Assembly: GCA_025361445.1 (NCBI GenBank)
Contig: JANYLP010000111.1
Span: 1-41,778, forward strand
Length of the DNA: 41,778 nucleotides
Source: Coriobacteriia bacterium
GTDB lineage: Bacteria > Actinomycetota > Coriobacteriia > Anaerosomatales > PALSA-660
Direction: 5' to 3'
Notes under the pieces: generated by a model
What the model saw: only the letters and a program-made list of their open reading frames with translations
The model's database searches: none
Told to the model about the DNA's origin: nothing
Shown: positions 8,452-32,010 of the stretch, piece after piece
Numbering within the stretch: position 1 is the first letter of the stretch
Layout: the number at the start of each line of letters is the position of its first letter
Translations under genes and position numbers: made by a program

Positions 8452-9135
8452 ATGAGCGGATCAGCCACACAGCCGGCCGCGAAGGCCCCCGTCTTCTGGG
8501 AGTGCCCGGCCTGCAACTACCTGTCCGGCGACGCATCCTTCGCGTCGGCTGGCTCACCGTGCCCGGGCTGTGGCTCCACGTCGGGACCGCGCAGGCAGTT
8601 CCCGCCGGACAGCCAGCGCCTCCTCGACACGCGCATCCGCGCCTACTACTCCGACCGGGAGTGGCAGATCAGTGTCATCCTCGCGGCCGCCCTGCTTGAG
8701 GCGCTGCTCGAGGACATCCTCGACCGGATCATGGCCGCACACGGCGCCGATGTTGCCATCCGCGGAACGCTGCTGGACTCCGTCCGGGCCATCGGCACGC
8801 GCATCTCGCGGCTGTTCCCCGACCTGACCGGCATGGAGTTCGAGGACGCCGCTTCGGAAGCCGGCCACCGCGACTTCCCGAAGCGCTGGCGCAAGGTGCG
8901 CACCATCCGCAACGCCTTCATCCACGACACGCCCTACCGTGACGTCGAGGGGACGCTGGACGCGGGGACCGCCACCGAGTCGATGCTGCTTCTCGACACC
9001 GCCTATGACCTCTTCGTCGCGATCAACAACAAGTTCGTCGCCGACGGCCGCGAGCATCGCAACGAGCCGGCACACATCGCGCTCCACGGTGGCGCCGTCG
9101 ACGAAGAGGCTCCTCACGGAGCCGTCGGGCCGTGA
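8452..9135 (+). CDS. Zinc-ribbon + HEPN-like domain protein
   Basis: N-term WECPACNYLSGDASFASAGSPCPGCGS (two CxxC knuckles), then a helical domain ending RKVRTIRNAFIHDTPY, containing Rx4H typical of HEPN domains. Its stop overlaps the hypF start. Confidence 0.6.
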   Translation: MSGSATQPAAKAPVFWECPACNYLSGDASFASAGSPCPGCGSTSGPRRQFPPDSQRLLDTRIRAYYSDREWQISVILAAALLEALLEDILDRIMAAHGADVAIRGTLLDSVRAIGTRISRLFPDLTGMEFEDAASEAGHRDFPKRWRKVRTIRNAFIHDTPYRDVEGTLDAGTATESMLLLDTAYDLFVAINNKFVADGREHRNEPAHIALHGGAVDEEAPHGAVGP

Positions 9136-11483
9136 CGACCGCCGCTCGCATCGAGGTGGCGGGGGTCGTGCAGGGAGTGGGGTTCCGCCCCTTCGTGTAC
9201 TCGCTCGCGCGCTCGCGGGGCCTGACCGGCTGGGTGAACAACAACGCGGGCGGCGTGACCATCGTGGTCGAAGGCGACGAGAACGTAGTGCTCGCGTTCG
9301 CCGACGACGTCTGGCGTGAGGCCCCGCCGATGGCGGTGGTGCAGTCGCTGAACCTGCAGATAGTCGAACCGGACGGATTCACGGAGTTCGGGATACGCGA
9401 GTCGGAAGCCAGCGGCGGTCTCACGCTCGTGTCACCCGACATCGCCACCTGTCCGGCTTGCCTCGCGGAGCTGCTCGATCCGGCCGACCGCCGGCACGGC
9501 TACGCGTTCACGAACTGCACCAACTGCGGGCCTCGCTTCACGATCGTGGAGTCTCTTCCTTACGATCGCCCTGCGACCTCGATGAAGTCGTTCCCGATGT
9601 GCCCGGAATGCGGCGCCGAGTACGTCGACCCCGCCGACCGGCGCTTCCACGCTCAGCCGAACGCCTGCCACGTATGCGGCCCGCGCCTGTACCTGAACGG
9701 CGACGAGGCGCCGGCCGAGCTGGCCTGGAGCCCTGCGGAGGCATTCACGCCCCTTCCGGAGCGGAACCGCGCCACGGAAAAGGCCCGATCCTCACGCGTG
9801 CTCGATACGGCCGCCGGCATGCTGCTCGACGGCCGTATCCTCGCCATCAAGGGGCTCGGAGGCTTCCATCTCGCGTGCGACGCCACCAACGAGGCCGCCG
9901 TCGCCAGGCTGCGCGAGCGCAAGCGCCGCTGGGGCAAGCCGCTGGCCATCATGCTGCCGGATATCGATTCCGCCCGGCTTCTATGCGAGATCGGCGATGA
10001 GGAGGCGGCACTGCTTGAGGGCACGAAGCGCCCGATCGTCCTCCTGCGTTTGCTTCCGATGACCACCCACACCGTTCTCGCCCCGTCGGTCGCCCCCGGC
10101 CTGGCCGAGCTCGGCGTGATGCTCCCCTACACGCCGCTGCACCATCTGCTGATGGCGGCCGTGAGCGGGCGCCCGCTTGTGATGACGTCCGGCAACCTGT
10201 CGGACGAGCCGATTGCTATCGACAACGCCGAGGCCCTCACGCGCCTCGCCCCGATCGCGGACGCCTTCCTGCTCCACGACCGCGAGATCCTTCAGCGCTA
10301 CGACGACTCCGTCGTCCGCGTCGTCGCCGGCGTCACCGAGCTCGTTCGCCGCTCGCGCGGCTACGCACCGTTCCCGCTGCACCTGCCGTTCGACACCGAC
10401 GTCCACATCCTCGCGGCCGGCCCCGAGCAGAAGAGCACGTTCTGCCTCGCGCGCGGCACCCACGCCTTCGTCAGCCAGCACCTCGGCGACATGGAGAACG
10501 CGGAGACGCTCGAGGCCTACGAACACACGCTCGCGCTCTACCAGGAGATGTTCCGCGTGAGACCGGGCGTGGTCGCGTACGACCTGCACCCGGAATACCT
10601 ATCGACCAAGTTCGCGAAATCCCTCGGCCTGCCGTCGGTCGGCGTGCAACACCACCACGCGCACATCGCGAGCGTGACGGCGGAGCACGGCATCGCCGAG
10701 AAGGTGATCGGCATCGCCTACGACGGCACCGGCTACGGGACCGATGGAACGATCTGGGGCGGCGAAGTGCTGCTCGCGGACTGGAGCGGCTTCGAGCGGG
10801 TCGCCCATCTTCGTCCCGTGCCCATGCCCGGTGGCGCCGCGGCTATCCGCCGACCCGCCCGGATGGCATCGGGGTTGCTCTCAGGTCTGGATGAAGGGCT
10901 GTTCGATCATCCCGGGGCTTCGATCCTGCAAGAATCACTCACGAAGATGGAGCACGCCACGCTTCGCGCGATGGCGACCCGGGGGTTGAACAGCCCTTTG
11001 ACGTCATCCATGGGGCGTTTGTTCGACGCGGTGGCCGCGCTCGCGGGAGTCCGCGCCGATGCTCTCTACGAGGGACAGGCGGCGATCGAGTTGGAAGCGC
11101 TCGCGGACCGCACAGAACGAGGTGCCTACCACTTCGCGCTAACCGGTGACTCGCCCGTGATCATCGATCCCGAACCGATGGTCCGCGAGCTCCTTGACGA
11201 CCTGGCTGGCGGCGTCGGCGCCTCCACCGTCTCTGCGCGCTTCCACAACGCCGTCGTGGACGTGACGGTGGATGTCGCCGCTCGCGCCGCAGCGCGAGCG
11301 GGCGTGCGGCATGTGGCACTCGCCGGAGGCGTATTCATGAACCGCATCGTGCTCGCAGGCGTTCGCGCAGGCCTTGAAACAGCAGATCTCGTCCCGCTCG
11401 TGCACCGCGACCTCCCCACAAACGACGGCGACGTCTCATACGGGCAGGCCGTCGTGGCTTGGGCGCGACGCGATACGGTATAA
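9132..11483 (+). CDS. hypF: carbamoyltransferase HypF
   Basis: Acylphosphatase motif VAGVVQGVGFRPFVYSLAR, Zn fingers CPACLAEL...CTNCGPRFT...CPECGAEY...CHVCGPRL, YrdC-like KGLGGFHLACDA, Kae1-like VGVQHHHAHIASVTAEHG. Confidence 0.97.
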   Translation: MTTAARIEVAGVVQGVGFRPFVYSLARSRGLTGWVNNNAGGVTIVVEGDENVVLAFADDVWREAPPMAVVQSLNLQIVEPDGFTEFGIRESEASGGLTLVSPDIATCPACLAELLDPADRRHGYAFTNCTNCGPRFTIVESLPYDRPATSMKSFPMCPECGAEYVDPADRRFHAQPNACHVCGPRLYLNGDEAPAELAWSPAEAFTPLPERNRATEKARSSRVLDTAAGMLLDGRILAIKGLGGFHLACDATNEAAVARLRERKRRWGKPLAIMLPDIDSARLLCEIGDEEAALLEGTKRPIVLLRLLPMTTHTVLAPSVAPGLAELGVMLPYTPLHHLLMAAVSGRPLVMTSGNLSDEPIAIDNAEALTRLAPIADAFLLHDREILQRYDDSVVRVVAGVTELVRRSRGYAPFPLHLPFDTDVHILAAGPEQKSTFCLARGTHAFVSQHLGDMENAETLEAYEHTLALYQEMFRVRPGVVAYDLHPEYLSTKFAKSLGLPSVGVQHHHAHIASVTAEHGIAEKVIGIAYDGTGYGTDGTIWGGEVLLADWSGFERVAHLRPVPMPGGAAAIRRPARMASGLLSGLDEGLFDHPGASILQESLTKMEHATLRAMATRGLNSPLTSSMGRLFDAVAALAGVRADALYEGQAAIELEALADRTERGAYHFALTGDSPVIIDPEPMVRELLDDLAGGVGASTVSARFHNAVVDVTVDVAARAAARAGVRHVALAGGVFMNRIVLAGVRAGLETADLVPLVHRDLPTNDGDVSYGQAVVAWARRDTV

Positions 11484-11529
11484 CAGGCCGGTACGCCGGC
11501 ACGTCTTCGCGACCAAGAGGAGCTCTCCC

Positions 11530-11796
11530 ATGTGTCTAGCGATCCCGGCCCAGGTCATCCTCATGAACGAGAACCAGATGGCGGAGGTCGACATCCACGG
11601 CGTCACGCGCACCGTGAGCCTGTCGATGACGCCGGAAGCCGAGGTCGGCTCGTGGGTGCTCATCCACGCCGGCTTCTCGATCCAGGTCGTCGACGAGGAG
11701 TTCGCAGCCGAGTCCTGGGAGCTCATCAAGCAGATCGAGTGGGACGACGGCGACATGGCTGAGGTCGGCGCGGACGCGACAGAGGTCGGCGTCTGA
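11530..11796 (+). CDS. hypC: hydrogenase maturation chaperone HypC
   Basis: MCLAIPAQVI N-terminus (essential Cys2), VGSWVLIHAGFSIQVVDEEFA. Confidence 0.95.
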   Translation: MCLAIPAQVILMNENQMAEVDIHGVTRTVSLSMTPEAEVGSWVLIHAGFSIQVVDEEFAAESWELIKQIEWDDGDMAEVGADATEVGV

Positions 11797-11797
11797 C

Positions 11798-12892
11798 ATG
11801 GCGGACCTGCTGTCCGCATGGCGTGACCCCGAGCTGGCCAAGCACCTCGTTGAGCTGATCGCAGAAGCCGCCGACCGTCCCATGAAGATCATGGAGGTGT
11901 GCGGAACGCACACCGTGGCGATCGCCCGCTTCGGGCTGCGCGAGGTCATGCCTCCCAACGTGACGCTCATCTCGGGCCCCGGCTGTCCGGTCTGCGTGAC
12001 CGCGAACCGCGACATCGACTTCGCCATCGAGATCGGCCGCCTGCCGAACGTCGTGATCACCACGTTCGGAGACATGATGAAGGTCCCGGGCTCCTACTCT
12101 TCGCTGTCCCGTGAGAAGGCCGACGGGCGCGACATCCGCATCATCTACTCCCCCCTCGACGCCCTCAAGATCGCCGAGACCGAACCCGAGAAGCAGGTCG
12201 TCTTCATGGGCGTCGGCTTCGAGACCACGATCCCGACGATCGCCGTGACCATCAAGGAAGCGAAGAAGCGGGGCCTCACCAACTTCAGCGTGCTATCGGT
12301 CCACAAGACGGTCCCGAAGGCGCTCGAGGCGCTCATCAACGACCCCGAGGTCCAGATCGACGGGTTCATCCTCCCGGGACACGTGTCCACCATCATCGGG
12401 CCCGAGCCGTACCGCTTCCTCGCAACGCAGTACCACGTCCCGGGAGTGGCGACCGGCTTCGAGCCGATCGACGTACTCCAGGGCGTCTGGATGCTGGCCC
12501 GCCAGATCAAGGAGGGCCGCGCCGAGATCGAGGTCGCCTACAGGCGCGGCGTCAACGCCGACGGTAACCCCACCGCCCGTGCGCTCATCGAAGAGGTATT
12601 CGAGCCGAGCGACTCCGACTGGCGCGGCATCGGCGTCATCCCGGGCACCGGCCTGGCGATCCGCGCGGAGTTCGCCGACTTCGACGCCGCCAAGCGCTTC
12701 GACGTCACGCCGCCTGTGCCGAAGGACATCCCGGGTTGCAAGTGCGGCTCGGTCTTGCGGGGCGTCATCCTGCCGTTCGAGTGCAAGCTCTTCGGCAAGG
12801 GCTGCACCCCGGAGCACCCGATCGGGCCGTGCATGGTCTCGTCCGAGGGATCGTGCGCAGCGTACTACCGCTACACCGACTACGGCCGCTAG
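11798..12892 (+). CDS. hypD: hydrogenase maturation protein HypD
   Basis: MEVCGTHTVAIARFGL, SGPGCPVCVT, and C-term Cys cluster CKCGSVLRGVILPFECKLFGKGCTPEHPIGPCMVSSEGSCAAYYRY. Confidence 0.97.
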   Translation: MADLLSAWRDPELAKHLVELIAEAADRPMKIMEVCGTHTVAIARFGLREVMPPNVTLISGPGCPVCVTANRDIDFAIEIGRLPNVVITTFGDMMKVPGSYSSLSREKADGRDIRIIYSPLDALKIAETEPEKQVVFMGVGFETTIPTIAVTIKEAKKRGLTNFSVLSVHKTVPKALEALINDPEVQIDGFILPGHVSTIIGPEPYRFLATQYHVPGVATGFEPIDVLQGVWMLARQIKEGRAEIEVAYRRGVNADGNPTARALIEEVFEPSDSDWRGIGVIPGTGLAIRAEFADFDAAKRFDVTPPVPKDIPGCKCGSVLRGVILPFECKLFGKGCTPEHPIGPCMVSSEGSCAAYYRYTDYGR

Positions 12893-12922
12893 GGACGCTT
12901 CCTTCCCCGGCTCGATAGAACG

Positions 12923-12966
12923 AGTGAGGCCCCCGGGAATCCCGGGGACCTTCGTACTCACTCGAG
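12923..12966. terminator. Nested hairpin between the convergent hypD (+) and secreted-protein (-) genes
   Basis: Inner CCCCGGG-AAT-CCCGGGG (12933-12949) inside outer CGAGTGAG (12923-12930)/CTCACTCG (12959-12966). Confidence 0.5.
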
Positions 12967-12980
12967 TACCGGATCGGCTG

Positions 12981-14000
12981 CTAGGGCCTGTCGTGTCCGG
13001 GTCCGTCGTCGTGCATCGAGTCGCCCTTATGCATCACGGCTGCGTGGAACACGACCCTGACGGCCGTCTTCGCGCCGGCGAGCTCAGTGAACCTCACTTC
13101 GACGATCGCGCCCGCAATCAGGTCACCGGAACCGGCTACATGATCCGGCGCCACGATGTCCTCGCCCCACGCGAAGGTGGTGCCTGGGGCCACGGTCAGA
13201 TCGAAGGTGTGGTCGCTATGGCGGACCGCCTGTACGACGAGCGTCGCCGACGTCGTGTCGAAGCTGACCACTGCGGCGGTCATGTCCGCTTCCTGATGGT
13301 CGCCCTCGTCGTCGCCGTCGGCCTGCTCGGCCTTGAGCAGCACACGGGTCGCGAGCAGCGAACCGTCGGGCTGTGTCGTGGCGTCGACGGAGTGGACGCG
13401 AACGCCGACCACAAGGTCAGCGAGGGTGGGATCGGCGGTCGGTGTCGCATCGCCCCGGTGGTCGGTCTTCCACTTCAGAACGGTGTCGGCGTCGATAGTG
13501 ACGGTCGTCACAACGGACCTGCGGTGGCTGCGCGACGCGAGCGTCAGGATGCCGGTGAGCGGATCGAACGCGGTGATCGTTCCTCGGATCTCGTTCCCGT
13601 CACGGACGCCGTCGTGATCGGAGTCCGCGCCACGGGGGTTCGTGCCGTCCAGGAACTCCTGCGCGTTGTCGACGCCGTCGTGATCCGCGTCCTTCAGGGG
13701 GTCCGGCACGCCCGTGTGTCCGGTATCGGCGACGCGGGGGTTCGTCCCCGAGAGGAACTCCTGGATGTTGGTGAGACCGTCGTGATCGGCGTCCAGATTC
13801 GCTTGGTTCCTGTTCAGGCTCATGTGGAACTTCTTCTCCCATGAGTCCGGGATCTTGTTGTGGTTGCGGTCCGCGGGCCTCGCAAAAGCAGGAGTGCTGG
13901 TGGCGAGCATCATGGCCAGTCCCGTGCCGACGAAGAGAAGTACCCTTCCGGCACGTCCGATCGCCGATGAAAGCCCTCGATCGACCTTGTCTTCCCTCAT
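12981..14000 (-). CDS. Secreted protein with thrombospondin type-3/calcium-binding-like repeats and DUF5666-like beta domains
   Basis: Signal peptide (RVLLFVGTGLAMMLATSTPAFA), then DADHDGLTNIQEFLSGTNP...DADHDGVDNAQEFLDGTNPRGADSDHDGVRDGNEI and beta-rich repeats. Start ATG at 14000 with GGAAAGG upstream. Confidence 0.8.
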   Translation of the reverse strand: MREDKVDRGLSSAIGRAGRVLLFVGTGLAMMLATSTPAFARPADRNHNKIPDSWEKKFHMSLNRNQANLDADHDGLTNIQEFLSGTNPRVADTGHTGVPDPLKDADHDGVDNAQEFLDGTNPRGADSDHDGVRDGNEIRGTITAFDPLTGILTLASRSHRRSVVTTVTIDADTVLKWKTDHRGDATPTADPTLADLVVGVRVHSVDATTQPDGSLLATRVLLKAEQADGDDEGDHQEADMTAAVVSFDTTSATLVVQAVRHSDHTFDLTVAPGTTFAWGEDIVAPDHVAGSGDLIAGAIVEVRFTELAGAKTAVRVVFHAAVMHKGDSMHDDGPGHDRP

Positions 14001-14224
14001 GTGCGTGATTCCTTTCCCTCTCTGGTACCCGACTCGCTTCCAGCGAGCACCGTGCCGTTCCGCGCCACGCCGCGGCGCCCCGGGTGTCTTCTGAACCCGG
14101 AAACCGACTACAATCCCGATATGGCACACATCGCGCTGTTCGTTCGCAGCGTGTCTAACGTATATCGACCAGAACCACCCCGCGTATAACCGCTAACCTC
14201 CACTGAGCCGTCGAAAGGCACACC

Positions 14225-15235
14225 ATGCGCTCCGACCGTGTACTTCTCGCTCACGGCAGCGGCGGCACGATGATGCGCGAGCTGATCGAGGACGTCTTCA
14301 TCGCGCGCTTCAACGACGAGGCGTTGCTTCGCATGGACGACGCCGCGGCGCTCGAGATCCCGCCGGGCCGCATCGCGCTGACGACCGACACCTACGTCGT
14401 GACGCCGCGCTTCTTCCCCGGCGGGGACATCGGCCGCTTGGCCGTCGCGGGCACCGTGAACGACGTCGCCACAGCCGGCGCCACTCCGCTGTTCCTCACC
14501 GTCGGCTTCGTGCTCGAGGAAGGCCTGATGATCGAGGAGCTGCAGCGCATCCTGGACTCCATGGTCGCTGTGGCAGCCGAGGCCGGAGTCAGGATCGTCA
14601 CCGGCGACACGAAGGTCGTCGAGCGCGGGCATGGGGACGGCATCTACATCAACACGGCGGGCGTCGGTGTGGTCCGCGAGGGCGTCGACCTGTCGAGCCG
14701 CTACTGCAAGCCTGGCGACGTCGTGCTGCTGTCCGGCACGCTGGGAGACCACGGCATCGCGGTCATGTCCACTCGCGAAGGGCTCTCGTTCGGCACCGAC
14801 ATCGTTTCCGACGCGGCGCCGCTGAACCACCTCGTGGCGGCCACGCTCGACGCCGCCCCCGATGCGCGATGCTTCCGTGACCCGACGCGTGGAGGGCTTG
14901 CCAGCTGCCTGAACGAGCTCGCGTCCGCCTCCAAGGTATCCATCACCGTGGTCGAGGACGACGTACCCGTGCGCGAGCAGGTGCGCGGCGCGTGCGAGAT
15001 GCTCGGCTACGACGTCTATCAGGTCGCTAACGAAGGCAAGATGGTCGCCGTCGTCCCGGCCGACCAGGCGGATGCGGCGCTCGCCGCCATGAAGTCGGCC
15101 CCCTACGGCGCCGACGCCGCCATCATCGGCGAGGTCACCGAGGGGCCAGCGGGCCGTGTCTACGTTAAGACCTCGTTCGGCGCCCGTCGCATCATGGACA
15201 TGCTCGTCGGCGAGCAGCTGCCCCGGATCTGCTAG
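14225..15235 (+). CDS. hypE: hydrogenase maturation protein HypE
   Basis: LAHGSGGTMMRELIEDVF, GDTKVVERGHGDGIYINTAGVG, DPTRGGLASCLNELA, C-terminal ...EQLPRIC with terminal Cys. Confidence 0.97.
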   Translation: MRSDRVLLAHGSGGTMMRELIEDVFIARFNDEALLRMDDAAALEIPPGRIALTTDTYVVTPRFFPGGDIGRLAVAGTVNDVATAGATPLFLTVGFVLEEGLMIEELQRILDSMVAVAAEAGVRIVTGDTKVVERGHGDGIYINTAGVGVVREGVDLSSRYCKPGDVVLLSGTLGDHGIAVMSTREGLSFGTDIVSDAAPLNHLVAATLDAAPDARCFRDPTRGGLASCLNELASASKVSITVVEDDVPVREQVRGACEMLGYDVYQVANEGKMVAVVPADQADAALAAMKSAPYGADAAIIGEVTEGPAGRVYVKTSFGARRIMDMLVGEQLPRIC

Positions 15236-24322: not shown

Positions 24323-25339
24323 CTACCCGGTGACGATTCCGCTCTTCCGGCCGCACGTGGGACAGGCGCCCTCCGGCATGCCCGCCCCGACCACCCGGAA
24401 GCCCTCACGCCTCACGAGAGTCGCGCCGCACCCCGGACAGACGGTGTCCTCGCCGCCCGGCTCCGAGACGTTGCCGAGATAGACGTGGAGCAGTCCGGCC
24501 CCGTGGCCGATCTCCCGCGCCCGGCGCAGCGTGGACAGAGGCGTGGGTTCGAGATGTGAGAAGTCGAGGTAGGGGAAGAACCGCGTGATGTGCCACGGCG
24601 TCTCGGGGCCGAGCTCCTGAGCGATCCATGCCGCGAGCGCCGTGAGCTGCGCTTCATCGTCATTGATCGTCGGCACGACGTTCGTGACGACTTCGACGTG
24701 CATCCCGTGTACGTGCTTCGCCCGCTCGGCCGCCCGCAGGATCGGGCCCACGCTCGGCACCCGGCACAGCGTGCGATACGCCTCGTCCGTCATGCCCTTC
24801 ACGTCGACGCGCCACACATCGATCGCGCCGGCGAGGTAGTCGAGACCCTCCGTGGTGATGTAGCCGTTTGTGACCATGATGGTGAAGAGGCCGCTCTCGT
24901 GCGCCAACCGCGACGTGTCGCGCACGTACTCCGCCTGGATCACCGGCTCGTTGTAGGTGAACGCGATGCCTTCGCAGCCTTCGCGCAGCGCCCCGGCCAC
25001 CACGTCGGCGGGCGACAGGTCCCGCAGCAGGTCGCCGTCACAGGACGCGCGGCTGATCTGCCAGTTCTGGCAGTGCCCGCAGCGCATGGTGCATCCCACC
25101 GAACCGACGGAGAAGACGAGAGTCCCGGGGCGATAGTGGAAGACCGGCTTCTTCTCGATGGGGTCGACGGCGACCGACGACACGCGCCCATACGTGAGCG
25201 CGATCAGCGACCCGCCCTCGTTGCGCCGTACGGCACAAAAGCCGACGCTGCCATCGCGAATGCGGCACGCGTGCGGACACAACTCGCAGCGGATGACGTC
25301 GCCCTCGGCGCGCCACAGATCCGCGCGGTGGATCTCCAT
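24323..25339 (-). CDS. amrS: AmmeMemoRadiSam-system radical SAM enzyme (AmrS/PFL-activating-like)
   Basis: MEIHRADLWRAEGDVIRCELCPHACRIRDGSVGFCAVRRNEGG..., CTMRCGHCQNWQIS (CX3CX2C), AFTYNEPVI; C-term Zn ribbon CPGCGATLV...CPTCGRKS. Confidence 0.88.
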   Translation of the reverse strand: MEIHRADLWRAEGDVIRCELCPHACRIRDGSVGFCAVRRNEGGSLIALTYGRVSSVAVDPIEKKPVFHYRPGTLVFSVGSVGCTMRCGHCQNWQISRASCDGDLLRDLSPADVVAGALREGCEGIAFTYNEPVIQAEYVRDTSRLAHESGLFTIMVTNGYITTEGLDYLAGAIDVWRVDVKGMTDEAYRTLCRVPSVGPILRAAERAKHVHGMHVEVVTNVVPTINDDEAQLTALAAWIAQELGPETPWHITRFFPYLDFSHLEPTPLSTLRRAREIGHGAGLLHVYLGNVSEPGGEDTVCPGCGATLVRREGFRVVGAGMPEGACPTCGRKSGIVTG

Positions 25340-25353
25340 GGTGAGAACGCCTC

Positions 25354-27141
25354 CTAGCCCGGCGCGAGCCTGACCTGGTTGCGGCCGTTCTGCTTCGCGT
25401 GATAGAGAGCGCGGTCGGCCGCCTCCAGCAACTCGTCGGGCGATAGGGTCGTGCCGTTCAAGGCTGCGACCCCCACCGACACACGCACTTCGAAGTCGAG
25501 CGGTGCTGCGGGACGCACGCGCCACATGACTTCGGCTTCCTCGATCTCGAGCCTCAGCTTCTCGGCCACCGCGAACGCCTCGGTCTTGCTCGTCTGCGGA
25601 AGGATGACTGCGAACTCGTCGCCCCCGTAGCGGACAGCGAGATCGATGACGCGCAGGGTCTCGCGAAGGATGTCCGCAACCCCGTTCAGCACGGCGTCTC
25701 CCGCCGGATGTCCGAATCGGTCGTTCACCTGCTTGAAGTGATCGATATCGACCATGAGCAGCGCAAGCTGTCCGTCGTAGCGGGCGTGCCGCGCGCACTC
25801 CTCGCCGAGTCTGCTGGCAAAAGCACGTCGATTCGCCAGGCCCGTGAGCGGGTCGAGCATCGCCGTCTCCTCGAGTTCCTCGAGCTCGTCGCTGAGAACC
25901 CGGCTGCGGCGAGGGAGGCACGCCCTCCAGGTCGTCTCACCGCGGAAGATCGAAAGGGCGAACTCCTCACAACTCGGCAGGCCGCACATCCCACAGTCGA
26001 GGGCAGCGGAATCCATGCCCCCTTCGACCATGATCTCGCGCAATTCGTCCCCAGTGGGACGCTCGAGTCTGACCGGAGCCGCCTCGAACGAACGCCGAAG
26101 ATCGATCCGCGGGAGATGCTTGAGTATCTCGCGGCTCGAGACCCGCGATCTGGCGCGTCCGCACCGATCCGAGGCGGCCAGGTGCCGCTTGGTGAACAGC
26201 GGCATCCCCGGATTGACCGCGGGGCCGTCGAGGCATCCCTCGCAGTTGAGTGCGTCGAGGATGTGCGGCGCAGATTCGCCCGACTCGGCCGCCCGCAGCA
26301 CCGCCTCGAGCTCCTCGAGCCCGCGCGCGACGCGCACGTCGGGAGCGATCATGTCGCGCGACTCGAACGTGGAGCGTGGGTACCCGTCGGTGAGTGAGAT
26401 CTCCTTCAAAGGCTCGGGCCTTCGCCCGCCGGCGTGCTCTCGCGGGCGGGTCGGATGCGCGCTCACCGCCTCGTTTCGGCTGAGCGCGCTCTCGAGCTCG
26501 AGGAAGTCGATGACCGCGTCCAGATCGCATGCGAATTCGTCACCACGAGCCTCGTCCTTGCGGGCGAAGCACGGGGACACGTACACGATCGCTACCTCCT
26601 CCTCGTACATCTCTCGGATGAGTCGCGCCTGTGCGATATAGGGCGGCACCAGCGGCGCGAGCGCGCCGGTGAGCGCCGGGTGATACGTCCTGATCCAGTC
26701 GTTGACTACGGGACAGGTGGACCGGATGACCGGTACTCCACTCCCGCCGGCATGTCGTACCTCATAGGCGGCCGCGACCGCCTCTTCGCCCAACAGCGTC
26801 GACTCAACGGCGAAGAAGCCGGCGGCCTCGAGCCGCGCCTCGACCGCCTCGGGCGTGAGCGGGTACAGGGCCGCGACGAACTCAGTGGCGAGCAGCGCCA
26901 CGACCGGCCTATCGCCGCGCAGCAGCTCATCCACCACATTGCCGTCGGAGCGGACCACCCACGCCCCATGCGGACATTCGGTCACGCACAGGCCACACCG
27001 GACGCACTTCTCGTCGATGATCGCGACCGATCCGTCCGCGCACACGCGGACCGCACGCGCCGGGCACCGGTGAGCGCAGCGCCAGCAGCGGCGGCACGCC
27101 TCCGGATCCAGCGCGATGAGTGGACCGCGTTCGGCTGTCAC
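25354..27141 (-). CDS. Multidomain redox protein: 2x[4Fe-4S] ferredoxin - Fe-hydrogenase large-subunit-like domain - Fes [4Fe-4S] domain - GGDEF (diguanylate cyclase)
   Basis: CRRCWRCAHRCPA and CVRCGLCVTECPHGA; hydrogenase-like RSTCPVVNDWI, YVSPCFARKDEARG, LNCEGCLDGPAV; Fes CGMCGLPSCEEFALSIFRGETTWRAC (CX2CX4CX16C); GGDEF DPLTGLANRRAF...DIDHFKQVNDRFGHPAGD...RVIDLAVRYGGDEFAVILP. GTG start 27141 overlaps the upstream stop. Confidence 0.88.
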   Translation of the reverse strand: MTAERGPLIALDPEACRRCWRCAHRCPARAVRVCADGSVAIIDEKCVRCGLCVTECPHGAWVVRSDGNVVDELLRGDRPVVALLATEFVAALYPLTPEAVEARLEAAGFFAVESTLLGEEAVAAAYEVRHAGGSGVPVIRSTCPVVNDWIRTYHPALTGALAPLVPPYIAQARLIREMYEEEVAIVYVSPCFARKDEARGDEFACDLDAVIDFLELESALSRNEAVSAHPTRPREHAGGRRPEPLKEISLTDGYPRSTFESRDMIAPDVRVARGLEELEAVLRAAESGESAPHILDALNCEGCLDGPAVNPGMPLFTKRHLAASDRCGRARSRVSSREILKHLPRIDLRRSFEAAPVRLERPTGDELREIMVEGGMDSAALDCGMCGLPSCEEFALSIFRGETTWRACLPRRSRVLSDELEELEETAMLDPLTGLANRRAFASRLGEECARHARYDGQLALLMVDIDHFKQVNDRFGHPAGDAVLNGVADILRETLRVIDLAVRYGGDEFAVILPQTSKTEAFAVAEKLRLEIEEAEVMWRVRPAAPLDFEVRVSVGVAALNGTTLSPDELLEAADRALYHAKQNGRNQVRLAPG

Positions 27142-27698
27142 TCGTCTCCGCCCTCGAGACCCGGCAGGCGGATGCGGCTCAGAGCCGTGAGCAGCGGCCA
27201 GCCGAGGCCGTAGACCACAACGGCCTGACCGAGGCCGAGGCCGATGACGCCGGCGAGGTACAGGAGCGGCCAGGAACTCGAGGCGGTGATGCCGAGCAGC
27301 GGGATCGTCGTGATGCCCGCCGCACCGAGCATGGCGGGAAGGTACGCGGGCACGATGAGCGCGTTGAAGATGACCGGGCCGAGCAACGCGAGCGCCCGGC
27401 GGCGGCGGAAGTGCCACGACCACGACGCGCCGAGAAGCGTCGCGAGGGAGCCGAGCACGACGTCCAGCAGCCCCAGGGCGCCGAAGAGGCCGACGCTCGA
27501 GAGATTCGCGAGCGCCGATCCGATCGCGAGTCCGGGCAGGGCGGCGGGAGTCAGGAGCGCTACCACCGTGAGCGCCTCGCTCAGCCGAAACTGGACGATG
27601 CCGTAGCTGAGCGTGGCTCCGAGCTGGATGACGAGGAAGGTCAGCGCCCCGTAGACGGCTGCTATGACACCGGCGGTCGCGACGCGACGCGCGTTCAT
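27138..27698 (-). CDS. QueT-family membrane protein (putative ECF S component, queuosine-precursor type)
   Basis: RRVATAGVIAAVYGALTFLVIQLGATLSYGIVQFRLSEALTVVALLTPAALPGLAIGSALANL, resembling the QueT N-terminal signature (FRLSEAL). Confidence 0.8.
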   Translation of the reverse strand: MNARRVATAGVIAAVYGALTFLVIQLGATLSYGIVQFRLSEALTVVALLTPAALPGLAIGSALANLSSVGLFGALGLLDVVLGSLATLLGASWSWHFRRRRALALLGPVIFNALIVPAYLPAMLGAAGITTIPLLGITASSSWPLLYLAGVIGLGLGQAVVVYGLGWPLLTALSRIRLPGLEGGDE

Positions 27699-27823
27699 CT
27701 GACTCCCCTCAGGCAGTACGGAACAAAACGGCACAGGCCATGCGCCCCCAGCGCGGCCGCGATACCGTCGCCGCGCGCAAGCAGCGCCGGGCGTTGAGGT
27801 ATCTTACCCCGCCCCGCGCGAAC

Positions 27824-30210: not shown

Positions 30211-32010
30211 TCAGGAGTGCCGGTACAGGGCGAGTTCGAAGGCGGAGCCCCGCAGCCGCTCGGTCAGACCTTCGACCGACTCGCTGTAGAAGTGTTCCAC
30301 GAGACTGCGCCCGGTGACGGCGGACATCAGATCGCCGAGCTGCCCGAGCGTCGAACGCATCGCAGCAAGCTCGTCGTCCGGGTCGCCGATGCGATCCCAG
30401 CTCGCGCTCAAGTGGCCTGCGCTGAGGGAGAACGCCGGCTGGTGGCCCGCAAGCCACTGCGCCATGGACGTCTCAAGGTTCGCGGTGAGTCGCGGCCCAC
30501 CGAGCCGGCGGAACGCCGAGAGCATCCCGTCCGCGATCGACACGAACACCGCGCGCGCTTCGTAGCGATCGACTTCGAGGCCTACGCGCTCGGGGCCGTG
30601 GGACTCGGAGTCGGAGGCCCGTAGCACCTCGATGAGCGAATCAACGACACGGGGGTCGAACTGCGTTCCGGCGCAGCCCTTGAGTTCGCTGATGGCGCCC
30701 TGGGCGCTGAGGCTCTTGCGATAGGGTCGATCGGCGATCATCGCTTCGTACGCGTCCGCGACGCACAGGACCCGTGCCAGGATCGGGATCTCCTCCCCCC
30801 GCAGCCCCGCGGGATACCCTCCACCGTCGTAGCGCTCATGGTGATGCCGCACGACCGGACCGATCGACCAGGGGAACGCCACGGGCCTCAGGATGTTCGC
30901 GCCGATGAGCGGATGGTGCCGCATCGTCAGGGTCTCTTCTTCGTTCAGCGGCCCCGGCTTGCGCAGGATGTGCCCGCTGATGCCGATCTTGCCGATGTCG
31001 TGCAGGTAGGCCGCCATCTCGAGTGCGGTGCACTGCTCGTGAGAAAGCCCCATGTTCTCGGCGATCGAACGCGAGAAGACGGCGACTCTCTCCGAGTGGC
31101 CGCGCATATGCGGCTCCTTGGCATCGACCGCTGCGGCCAGGGAGCGGACCGTGGCCAGATACGCGTCCTGGAGGCTCGCATAGAGCTCCGTGTTCCCGAT
31201 CGCCACGGTGAGGTGATTCGCGATGGTGGACAGGAGCCGGACGTGGTCGCCGGTGAAGCGCGCGTTGCGGTCGCGGCTCCCGACCGCGATCGCGCCGATC
31301 ACGCCGTCTGCGGCGTGCAGGGGAACGCAGACGGCGGCGAGCGCCCCCGTCATGCTGTCGACATTCTCGACGTCGCCGTTGCTCGTCGAAGGATTGAAGA
31401 TGAGAGGACGCCCCTGGCGCACGACCCATTCCGACATCGAAGAGCGCACCGCCCGGTCGTCCGGGGCGGCATCCGTCGTTCCCCGCCATGCGCGCAACTG
31501 CAGGTCGGACGAGGCGGGGTCGCGCAGGACCAGGTACCCGGAATCAACCGCGAAGCTGCGCATCGCGGCATCGAGAGTGGAGTCCAGGAGCGCGTCCAAG
31601 TCGAGCGTCGATCCCAGAGCCCGACTCGTCTCGTACAGCGTCGTGAGTTCGTCGACCTTCTGCGTGAGGTCCTCGGTCCGCTGCTGGATCGTCGCCGCCA
31701 TCGAGTTGAACGCCTGCGACAACTCGAACAGCTCCTTGCGCGAGCCGAGGTCGATACGCACGTCGAGGTCGCCATCGGCGACCCGTCGTGCGCTGTCGGT
31801 CAGCGCCCCGAGCGGGATCATCGTGGTGTTCGCGACCAGTAGGAACACGGCGAAGACGCCGATGCCGACGTGCAGGGCGATGAACCAGACGCCCGTCTGA
31901 GCGATGACTGCGTACACGATGCCGACGATCGACAGTACGCCCACGAGGATAGCCACCGCGGCGATCACGGTGCTGCGGTCGAACGCCCTATGCGACGTGC
32001 TCTTCGCCAT
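30211..32010 (-). CDS. HAMP-GAF-HD-GYP domain protein (putative c-di-GMP phosphodiesterase)
   Basis: Two TM helices, HAMP-like IPLGALTDSARRVADGDLDVRIDLGSRKELFELSQAFNSM, GAF-like region, HLHDIGKIGISGHILRKPGPLNEEE and HHERYDGGGYPAGLRGEEIPILARVLCVADAYEAM. Confidence 0.93.
   Translation of the reverse strand: MAKSTSHRAFDRSTVIAAVAILVGVLSIVGIVYAVIAQTGVWFIALHVGIGVFAVFLLVANTTMIPLGALTDSARRVADGDLDVRIDLGSRKELFELSQAFNSMAATIQQRTEDLTQKVDELTTLYETSRALGSTLDLDALLDSTLDAAMRSFAVDSGYLVLRDPASSDLQLRAWRGTTDAAPDDRAVRSSMSEWVVRQGRPLIFNPSTSNGDVENVDSMTGALAAVCVPLHAADGVIGAIAVGSRDRNARFTGDHVRLLSTIANHLTVAIGNTELYASLQDAYLATVRSLAAAVDAKEPHMRGHSERVAVFSRSIAENMGLSHEQCTALEMAAYLHDIGKIGISGHILRKPGPLNEEETLTMRHHPLIGANILRPVAFPWSIGPVVRHHHERYDGGGYPAGLRGEEIPILARVLCVADAYEAMIADRPYRKSLSAQGAISELKGCAGTQFDPRVVDSLIEVLRASDSESHGPERVGLEVDRYEARAVFVSIADGMLSAFRRLGGPRLTANLETSMAQWLAGHQPAFSLSAGHLSASWDRIGDPDDELAAMRSTLGQLGDLMSAVTGRSLVEHFYSESVEGLTERLRGSAFELALYRHS

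Follow-up and report, generated by a model that had tools for sequence, protein, structure and literature searches.

In the window, by which we mean the whole analyzed stretch of 41,778 nucleotides from an actinobacterial genome of the order Anaerosomatales, a single gene joins a hydrogenase-like iron-sulfur body to a GGDEF domain. This architecture raises the question of what such a protein might sense, hydrogen or something else, and how it would report the signal. A sequence-only reading of the locus had described two ferredoxin motifs, an Fe-hydrogenase-like core, a Fes-type cluster and a GGDEF domain in one frame, and had proposed a diguanylate cyclase responsive to H2 or to redox state. 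Translation of the minus strand gave 595 open codons from GTG to stop, followed by the stop codon, and a Pfam search of the 595-residue product recovered every one of these domains, including the Fer4 pair of a ferredoxin-type dicluster, all above their gathering cut-offs (Table 1). The proposed CX2CX4CX16C spacing of the Fes site was confirmed, as was an intact GGDEF active site with an RxxD motif five residues ahead of it; the sequence RYGGDEF is likewise present, although the interval assigned to it (25612-25626) covers GGDEF alone and the longer motif spans 25612-25632.

Table 1. Features of the sensor-GGDEF gene and its operon partners, in window coordinates.
Feature	Position	Strand	Evidence
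QueT-family transporter, upstream operon partner	27138..27734	-	PF06177, 1.7e-31; 40/40 order loci
Whole gene: 2x[4Fe-4S] ferredoxin, hydrogenase fold, Fes and GGDEF fusion	25354..27141	-	595 aa, GTG start, open frame
Two ferredoxin-type [4Fe-4S] sites, C16, C19, C22, C26 and C46, C49, C52, C56	26974..27096	-	8 Cys invariant, 54/54
Hydrogenase-fold domain Fe_hyd_lg_C, residues 80-307	26221..26904	-	Pfam E=1.7e-25; Foldseek of sensor model
Motif L1 (RSTCP), C143	26713..26715	-	Cys invariant; CpI C299 position is Thr (Thr142)
Motif L2, C191 to R194	26560..26571	-	C191 invariant; R194 at CpI K358 position, 54/54
Motif L3, C300-E-G-C303	26233..26244	-	CxxC in place of CxxxC
Fes cluster domain PF04060, C383-X2-C386-X4-C391-X16-C408	25912..26001	-	Pfam E=8e-7 (residues 381-410); Cys invariant
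Signalling helix, residues 409-427, Fes site to GGDEF	25861..25917	-	AlphaFold2 model
GGDEF domain, residues 427-589	25375..25863	-	Pfam E=9e-47; PDB matches PleD, WspR, DgcB
RVID, RxxD inhibitory site, residues 497-500	25642..25653	-	R and D invariant in order set; RxxD 30/30 outside
GGDEF active-site motif, residues 506-510	25612..25626	-	Intact in this protein; 31/54 intact among order homologues
AmmeMemoRadiSam-system radical SAM enzyme (AmrS), downstream operon partner	24323..25339	-	TIGR04337, 309 bits; 37/40 order loci

An AlphaFold2 model built from 52 sequences (mean pLDDT 89) places a single helix between the last Fes cysteine and the GGDEF domain. In structural comparisons against the PDB, the sensor half alone matched [FeFe] hydrogenases (Foldseek, best E=2e-16, TM 0.66 on the query) and the GGDEF half matched known diguanylate cyclase structures. 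The best hydrogenase match among the NCBIfam models was that of group B1, at 112 bits against a cut-off of 450, and we are hence dealing with a divergent relative of these enzymes. All 16 cluster cysteines are invariant among 54 homologues from the order, and another 30 genomes, from elsewhere in the phylum, contain this fusion as well. This recurrence in dozens of genomes rules out a chance or artefactual fusion.

Within the order, an Fe_hyd_lg_C protein was found in 63 of 69 genomes, one in each (one of the genes being split over two contigs), and it is in every case the orthologue of the window protein, with 42-74% identity to it among the aligned sensors. In a sample of 397 genomes from the phylum the sensor profile matched 43. 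Reading the C-termini of the 30 GGDEF-type loci outside the order, we observed an intact GGDEF motif in 29 and a retained RxxD in all 30; at three further loci, in two genomes, a histidine kinase takes the place of the GGDEF domain. Thus, the fusion is conserved over a deep anaerobic branch of the Actinobacteria. A census had been suggested as a means of learning whether the architecture is very common and already characterized: it is common in the deep part of one phylum, yet undescribed, since full-text literature searches, with many subscription papers outside their scope, returned no description of an [FeFe]-GGDEF protein.

In the hydrogenase CpI, K358 is the lysine that anchors the H-cluster cofactor and C299 is the cysteine of the proton path. 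When the window protein is compared with a canonical H-cluster hydrogenase, the fold is present together with all four [4Fe-4S]H cysteines (C143, C191, C300, C303), which are invariant in the 54 order homologues; the CxxxC form of motif L3, a K358-type lysine, and HydG and HydF in the genome are all missing. Every actinobacterial sequence linked to GGDEF or to a kinase has CxxC as its motif L3, and the relatives from Ruminococcus, Monoglobus and Acetoanaerobium have CxxxC. The K358 position is occupied by Arg throughout the order; outside it, Ala or Gln mostly occurs there, and Lys is found in kinase- and PAS-linked relatives. Four basal GGDEF-linked members also have Lys at this position and lack HydG.

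The H-cluster maturation genes bear directly on the question. Neither HydG nor HydF was found over cut-off in any of the 69 order genomes, 51 of which have a completeness of 90% or more and a contamination of 5% or less, and neither was found in the window's own genome; the positive control, Thermotoga maritima, was detected in both searches. In 63 of these genomes the fusion is the sole Fe_hyd_lg_C protein, unaccompanied by HydG or HydF. The stronger sub-cut-off HydG matches in the order (161-192 bits, the cut-off being 312) were considered as disguised HydG and rejected as ThiH-like: both of the two that we read were of this kind, one of them beside a thiamine-kinase-like ORF. Outside the order, HydG over cut-off is absent from the GGDEF-linked genomes, and the only positive was a kinase-linked genome, G252, where a HydA-like ORF (identified by eye) lies immediately before the sensor gene on the contig that carries HydG. 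Because this kinase-linked relative has the CxxC motif and shares its contig with HydG, CxxC alone is no proof against an H-cluster. Among relatives with other outputs HydG is carried by G252 and by the armatimonadote G484, and in the remainder its presence is mixed, partly because the assemblies are fragmentary MAGs. Taken across Arg-, Ala- and Gln-bearing proteins whose genomes lack HydG, the Lys-bearing kinase- and PAS-linked relatives, and a Geotalea relative with Ala and no HydG, loss of K358 tends to coincide with a missing maturase, the four basal GGDEF-linked members being the exception. The window itself encodes the [NiFe] hydrogenase maturation proteins HypF, HypD and HypE (9132-15235), with no [FeFe] maturases found alongside. 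This fits the cultured Anaerosomatales, which are described as having [NiFe] hydrogenases and Hyp genes, with no [FeFe] enzyme mentioned (PMC9686372).

The genetics thus argue against the window protein holding an H-cluster or reacting with H2, and H2 sensing by way of an H-cluster is not supported. Since genes for building the H2-binding cofactor are missing from the genomes that encode it, the protein is a likelier sensor of redox state or oxygen than of hydrogen. Of the earlier proposal, the idea of an iron-sulfur-sensing cyclase stands and the hydrogen half finds no support.

With respect to its affinities, the window protein shows the features of the sensory group C/D hydrogenases: two N-terminal [4Fe-4S] sites, an H-domain, a C-terminal CX2CX4CX16C cluster whose spacing is that of the group C/D enzymes (PMC8163306), and replacement of Cys299. 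Its S189 and L298 match the Ser and Leu that TamHydS (group D/M2e, Thermoanaerobacter mathranii) has at the M353 and M497 positions (PMC8163306), and descent of the GGDEF-linked protein from the group C/D line is hence likely. TamHydS shares the same three cluster-bearing regions but binds an H-cluster and lacks a fused output, whereas the window protein has the GGDEF fusion, CxxC and Arg for K358, and its genome has no HydG or HydF. The group C sensory enzymes (TmHydS, Ruminococcus albus HydS; HydDB C1-C3) likewise carry a signalling module at the C-terminal end of such a sensor body; their known outputs, however, are PAS domains with kinase, chemotaxis or phosphatase partners. HydDB has no class of [FeFe] hydrogenase linked to diguanylate cyclases and lists that linkage only for [NiFe] group 2c, a putative hydrogenase-type sensor proposed to act via c-di-GMP, but an unrelated [NiFe] enzyme with another fold and cofactor. 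In our sensor tree (rooted on a distant hydrogenase, from a quick search and with some long branches) the GGDEF-linked clade is sister to the kinase-linked clade, with SH-aLRT supports of 99 and 98.

In a small survey of 23 genomes, identified by way of other loci, we recovered full-length relatives with kinase, sigma-54 AAA+ or PAS outputs, and none of those read had a GGDEF output. In Geotalea sp. SG265 (L225) the sensor, with a CxxxC motif and with Ala at the K358 position as judged from its sequence, is joined to a sigma-54 AAA+ activator that ends in a helix-turn-helix, and no HydG scored over cut-off in this genome. In the armatimonadote G484 (L224) it is fused to a histidine kinase and receiver; a divergent HydG-like gene adjoins it (G484:C354:4091-5422, 282 bits, below cut-off), and a full HydG lies elsewhere in that genome. 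In an actinobacterial MAG from Lac Pavin (L230) a HATPase-like domain stands N-terminal to the sensor, and HydG is present in the genome.

Based on these observations, we posit, with somewhat better than even confidence, that the fusion is an iron-sulfur sensor of redox state (or O2) that controls a diguanylate cyclase, with a simple [4Fe-4S] cluster occupying what was once the H-cluster pocket. Electrons would pass between the N-terminal ferredoxin clusters and a low-potential donor in the cell, reduced ferredoxin for example; the hydrogenase-fold domain would bind its cluster without the 2Fe half that binds H2; and the Fes cluster, adjoining the signalling helix, would communicate redox state or occupancy to a dimeric GGDEF domain. 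The geometry of that dimer would follow the state of the clusters, with c-di-GMP being made subject to product inhibition at RVID. Here we infer redox or O2 sensing itself, together with the cluster types, the electron donor, the signal, the direction of regulation and the dimer geometry. There are precedents for both halves of this proposal. Nar1/IOP1 (CIAO3), from organisms without the maturases, has the hydrogenase fold and binds Fe-S clusters but no 2Fe half (PMC12621388), although it is a eukaryotic Fe-S assembly factor with no signalling output domain. Bhr-DGC of Vibrio cholerae is a redox-dependent non-heme iron sensor fused to GGDEF and more active when reduced (PMC9388753), but its sensor is a hemerythrin diiron domain of unrelated fold. 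Conversely, H2 failed to reduce the C-terminal cluster of the related TamHydS, and the redox state of that cluster was considered an unlikely signal carrier (PMC13104023), which counts against this proposal. The four basal GGDEF-linked members with Lys at the K358 position also count against an explanation that dispenses with the H-cluster.

A variant that we regard as unlikely, if still worth serious thought, is that the protein is an alarm for O2 or NO, in which the signal is the assembly or destruction of a cluster and not reversible electron transfer. Exposed or semi-exposed Fe-S cluster sites are typical targets of O2, and the fusion protein has four of them in an anaerobic lineage; moreover, the hydrogenase-like Nar1 has been tied to oxygen sensitivity (PMC12621388). 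The invariance of the ferredoxin pair hints at a route for electrons and would favor reversible redox sensing, the reading that we prefer, though the present data fit both.

On the output side, the diguanylate cyclase residues D465, K470, N473, H478 and GGDEF are all present in the window protein and invariant among the intact homologues. The RxxD I-site of GGDEF proteins, which is common but not universal, confers product inhibition. The best reading of the domain is hence a predicted diguanylate cyclase, of the intact kind and product-inhibited at RVID. There are 11 GGDEF domains in the window's genome, and upstream of the fusion gene, past lysC and asd and in the same orientation, lies a HAMP-GAF-HD protein (30211-32010) that is probably an HD-GYP c-di-GMP phosphodiesterase; from these we take c-di-GMP signalling to be in use in this organism.

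The GGDEF motif is decayed in the other 23 of the 54 order homologues. On the tree this amounts to three changes, counting one more case outside the order: a clade of 21, all of family f2 (support 100), a pair in f16, and one elsewhere. All 21 sampled members of f2 are decayed with RxxD invariant (L097-L100, L107, L109, L110, L112, L114, L118, L122, L125, L126, L128, L131, L134, L139-L142, L145). Across the 23 decayed domains K470 has mostly become Gly, H478 mostly Glu, and E509 Gln or Arg; R497 and D500 of the I-site are kept in every one, and the R530 position is Arg or Lys in all. Their sensors are no less conserved than the others (mean majority fraction 0.75 versus 0.66, partly reflecting the closer kinship of that clade). 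Thus, these members have kept the sensor and probably the binding of c-di-GMP, and have probably lost its synthesis, which suggests a conversion from cyclase to c-di-GMP receptor on these branches.

The invariance of RxxD in domains that have lost GGDEF could be extended to the whole family, with the GGDEF domain serving mainly as a c-di-GMP receptor or docking domain, perhaps for the neighboring AmrS. The stop codon of the QueT gene overlaps the GTG start of the fusion (GTGA), the AmrS gene begins 14 nt past its stop, and the resulting order of transporter, sensor cyclase and radical SAM enzyme (24323-27734) is tight and conserved. Such a role is nevertheless improbable for the window protein: most of the GGDEF-linked homologues, inside the order and out, retain the intact motif, with their other catalytic residues invariant in the intact set, and AmrS does not adjoin all distant bearers. 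At 19 loci outside the order, some of them short and three kinase-linked, AmrS was present in five and QueT in one.

We give equally little credence to a true H2 sensor, in which an H-cluster in the H-domain would bind H2 and so set cyclase activity, as the sequence-only reading had suggested. HydDB supposes as much for group C enzymes with other outputs, the four [4Fe-4S]H cysteines are retained, S189 and L298 match pocket residues of an enzyme that interconverts H2 (PMC8163306), and [NiFe] enzymes probably allow members of the order to live on H2, as hypF, hypD and hypE suggest. Against this stand the missing maturases, the CxxC motif and the loss of K358 in all order members. Poorer still are the prospects of a non-canonical H2- or CO-reactive iron site assembled without HydEFG, which would make the pocket a new gas-sensing cofactor coupled to c-di-GMP.

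We therefore return to the iron-sulfur-regulated diguanylate cyclase, for which the window protein is a candidate. Sensory [FeFe] hydrogenases have been labelled H2 sensors on circumstantial grounds. A conserved clade with the body of a sensory hydrogenase, apparently without the H2 cofactor, points to the possibility that the clusters, and not H2 binding, may carry the signal. This idea can be tested on the fusion, which is one protein, probably soluble, and has in c-di-GMP an output that is simple to measure. Moreover, the family appears to offer a natural progression from intact to decayed cyclases, with the c-di-GMP-binding site retained.
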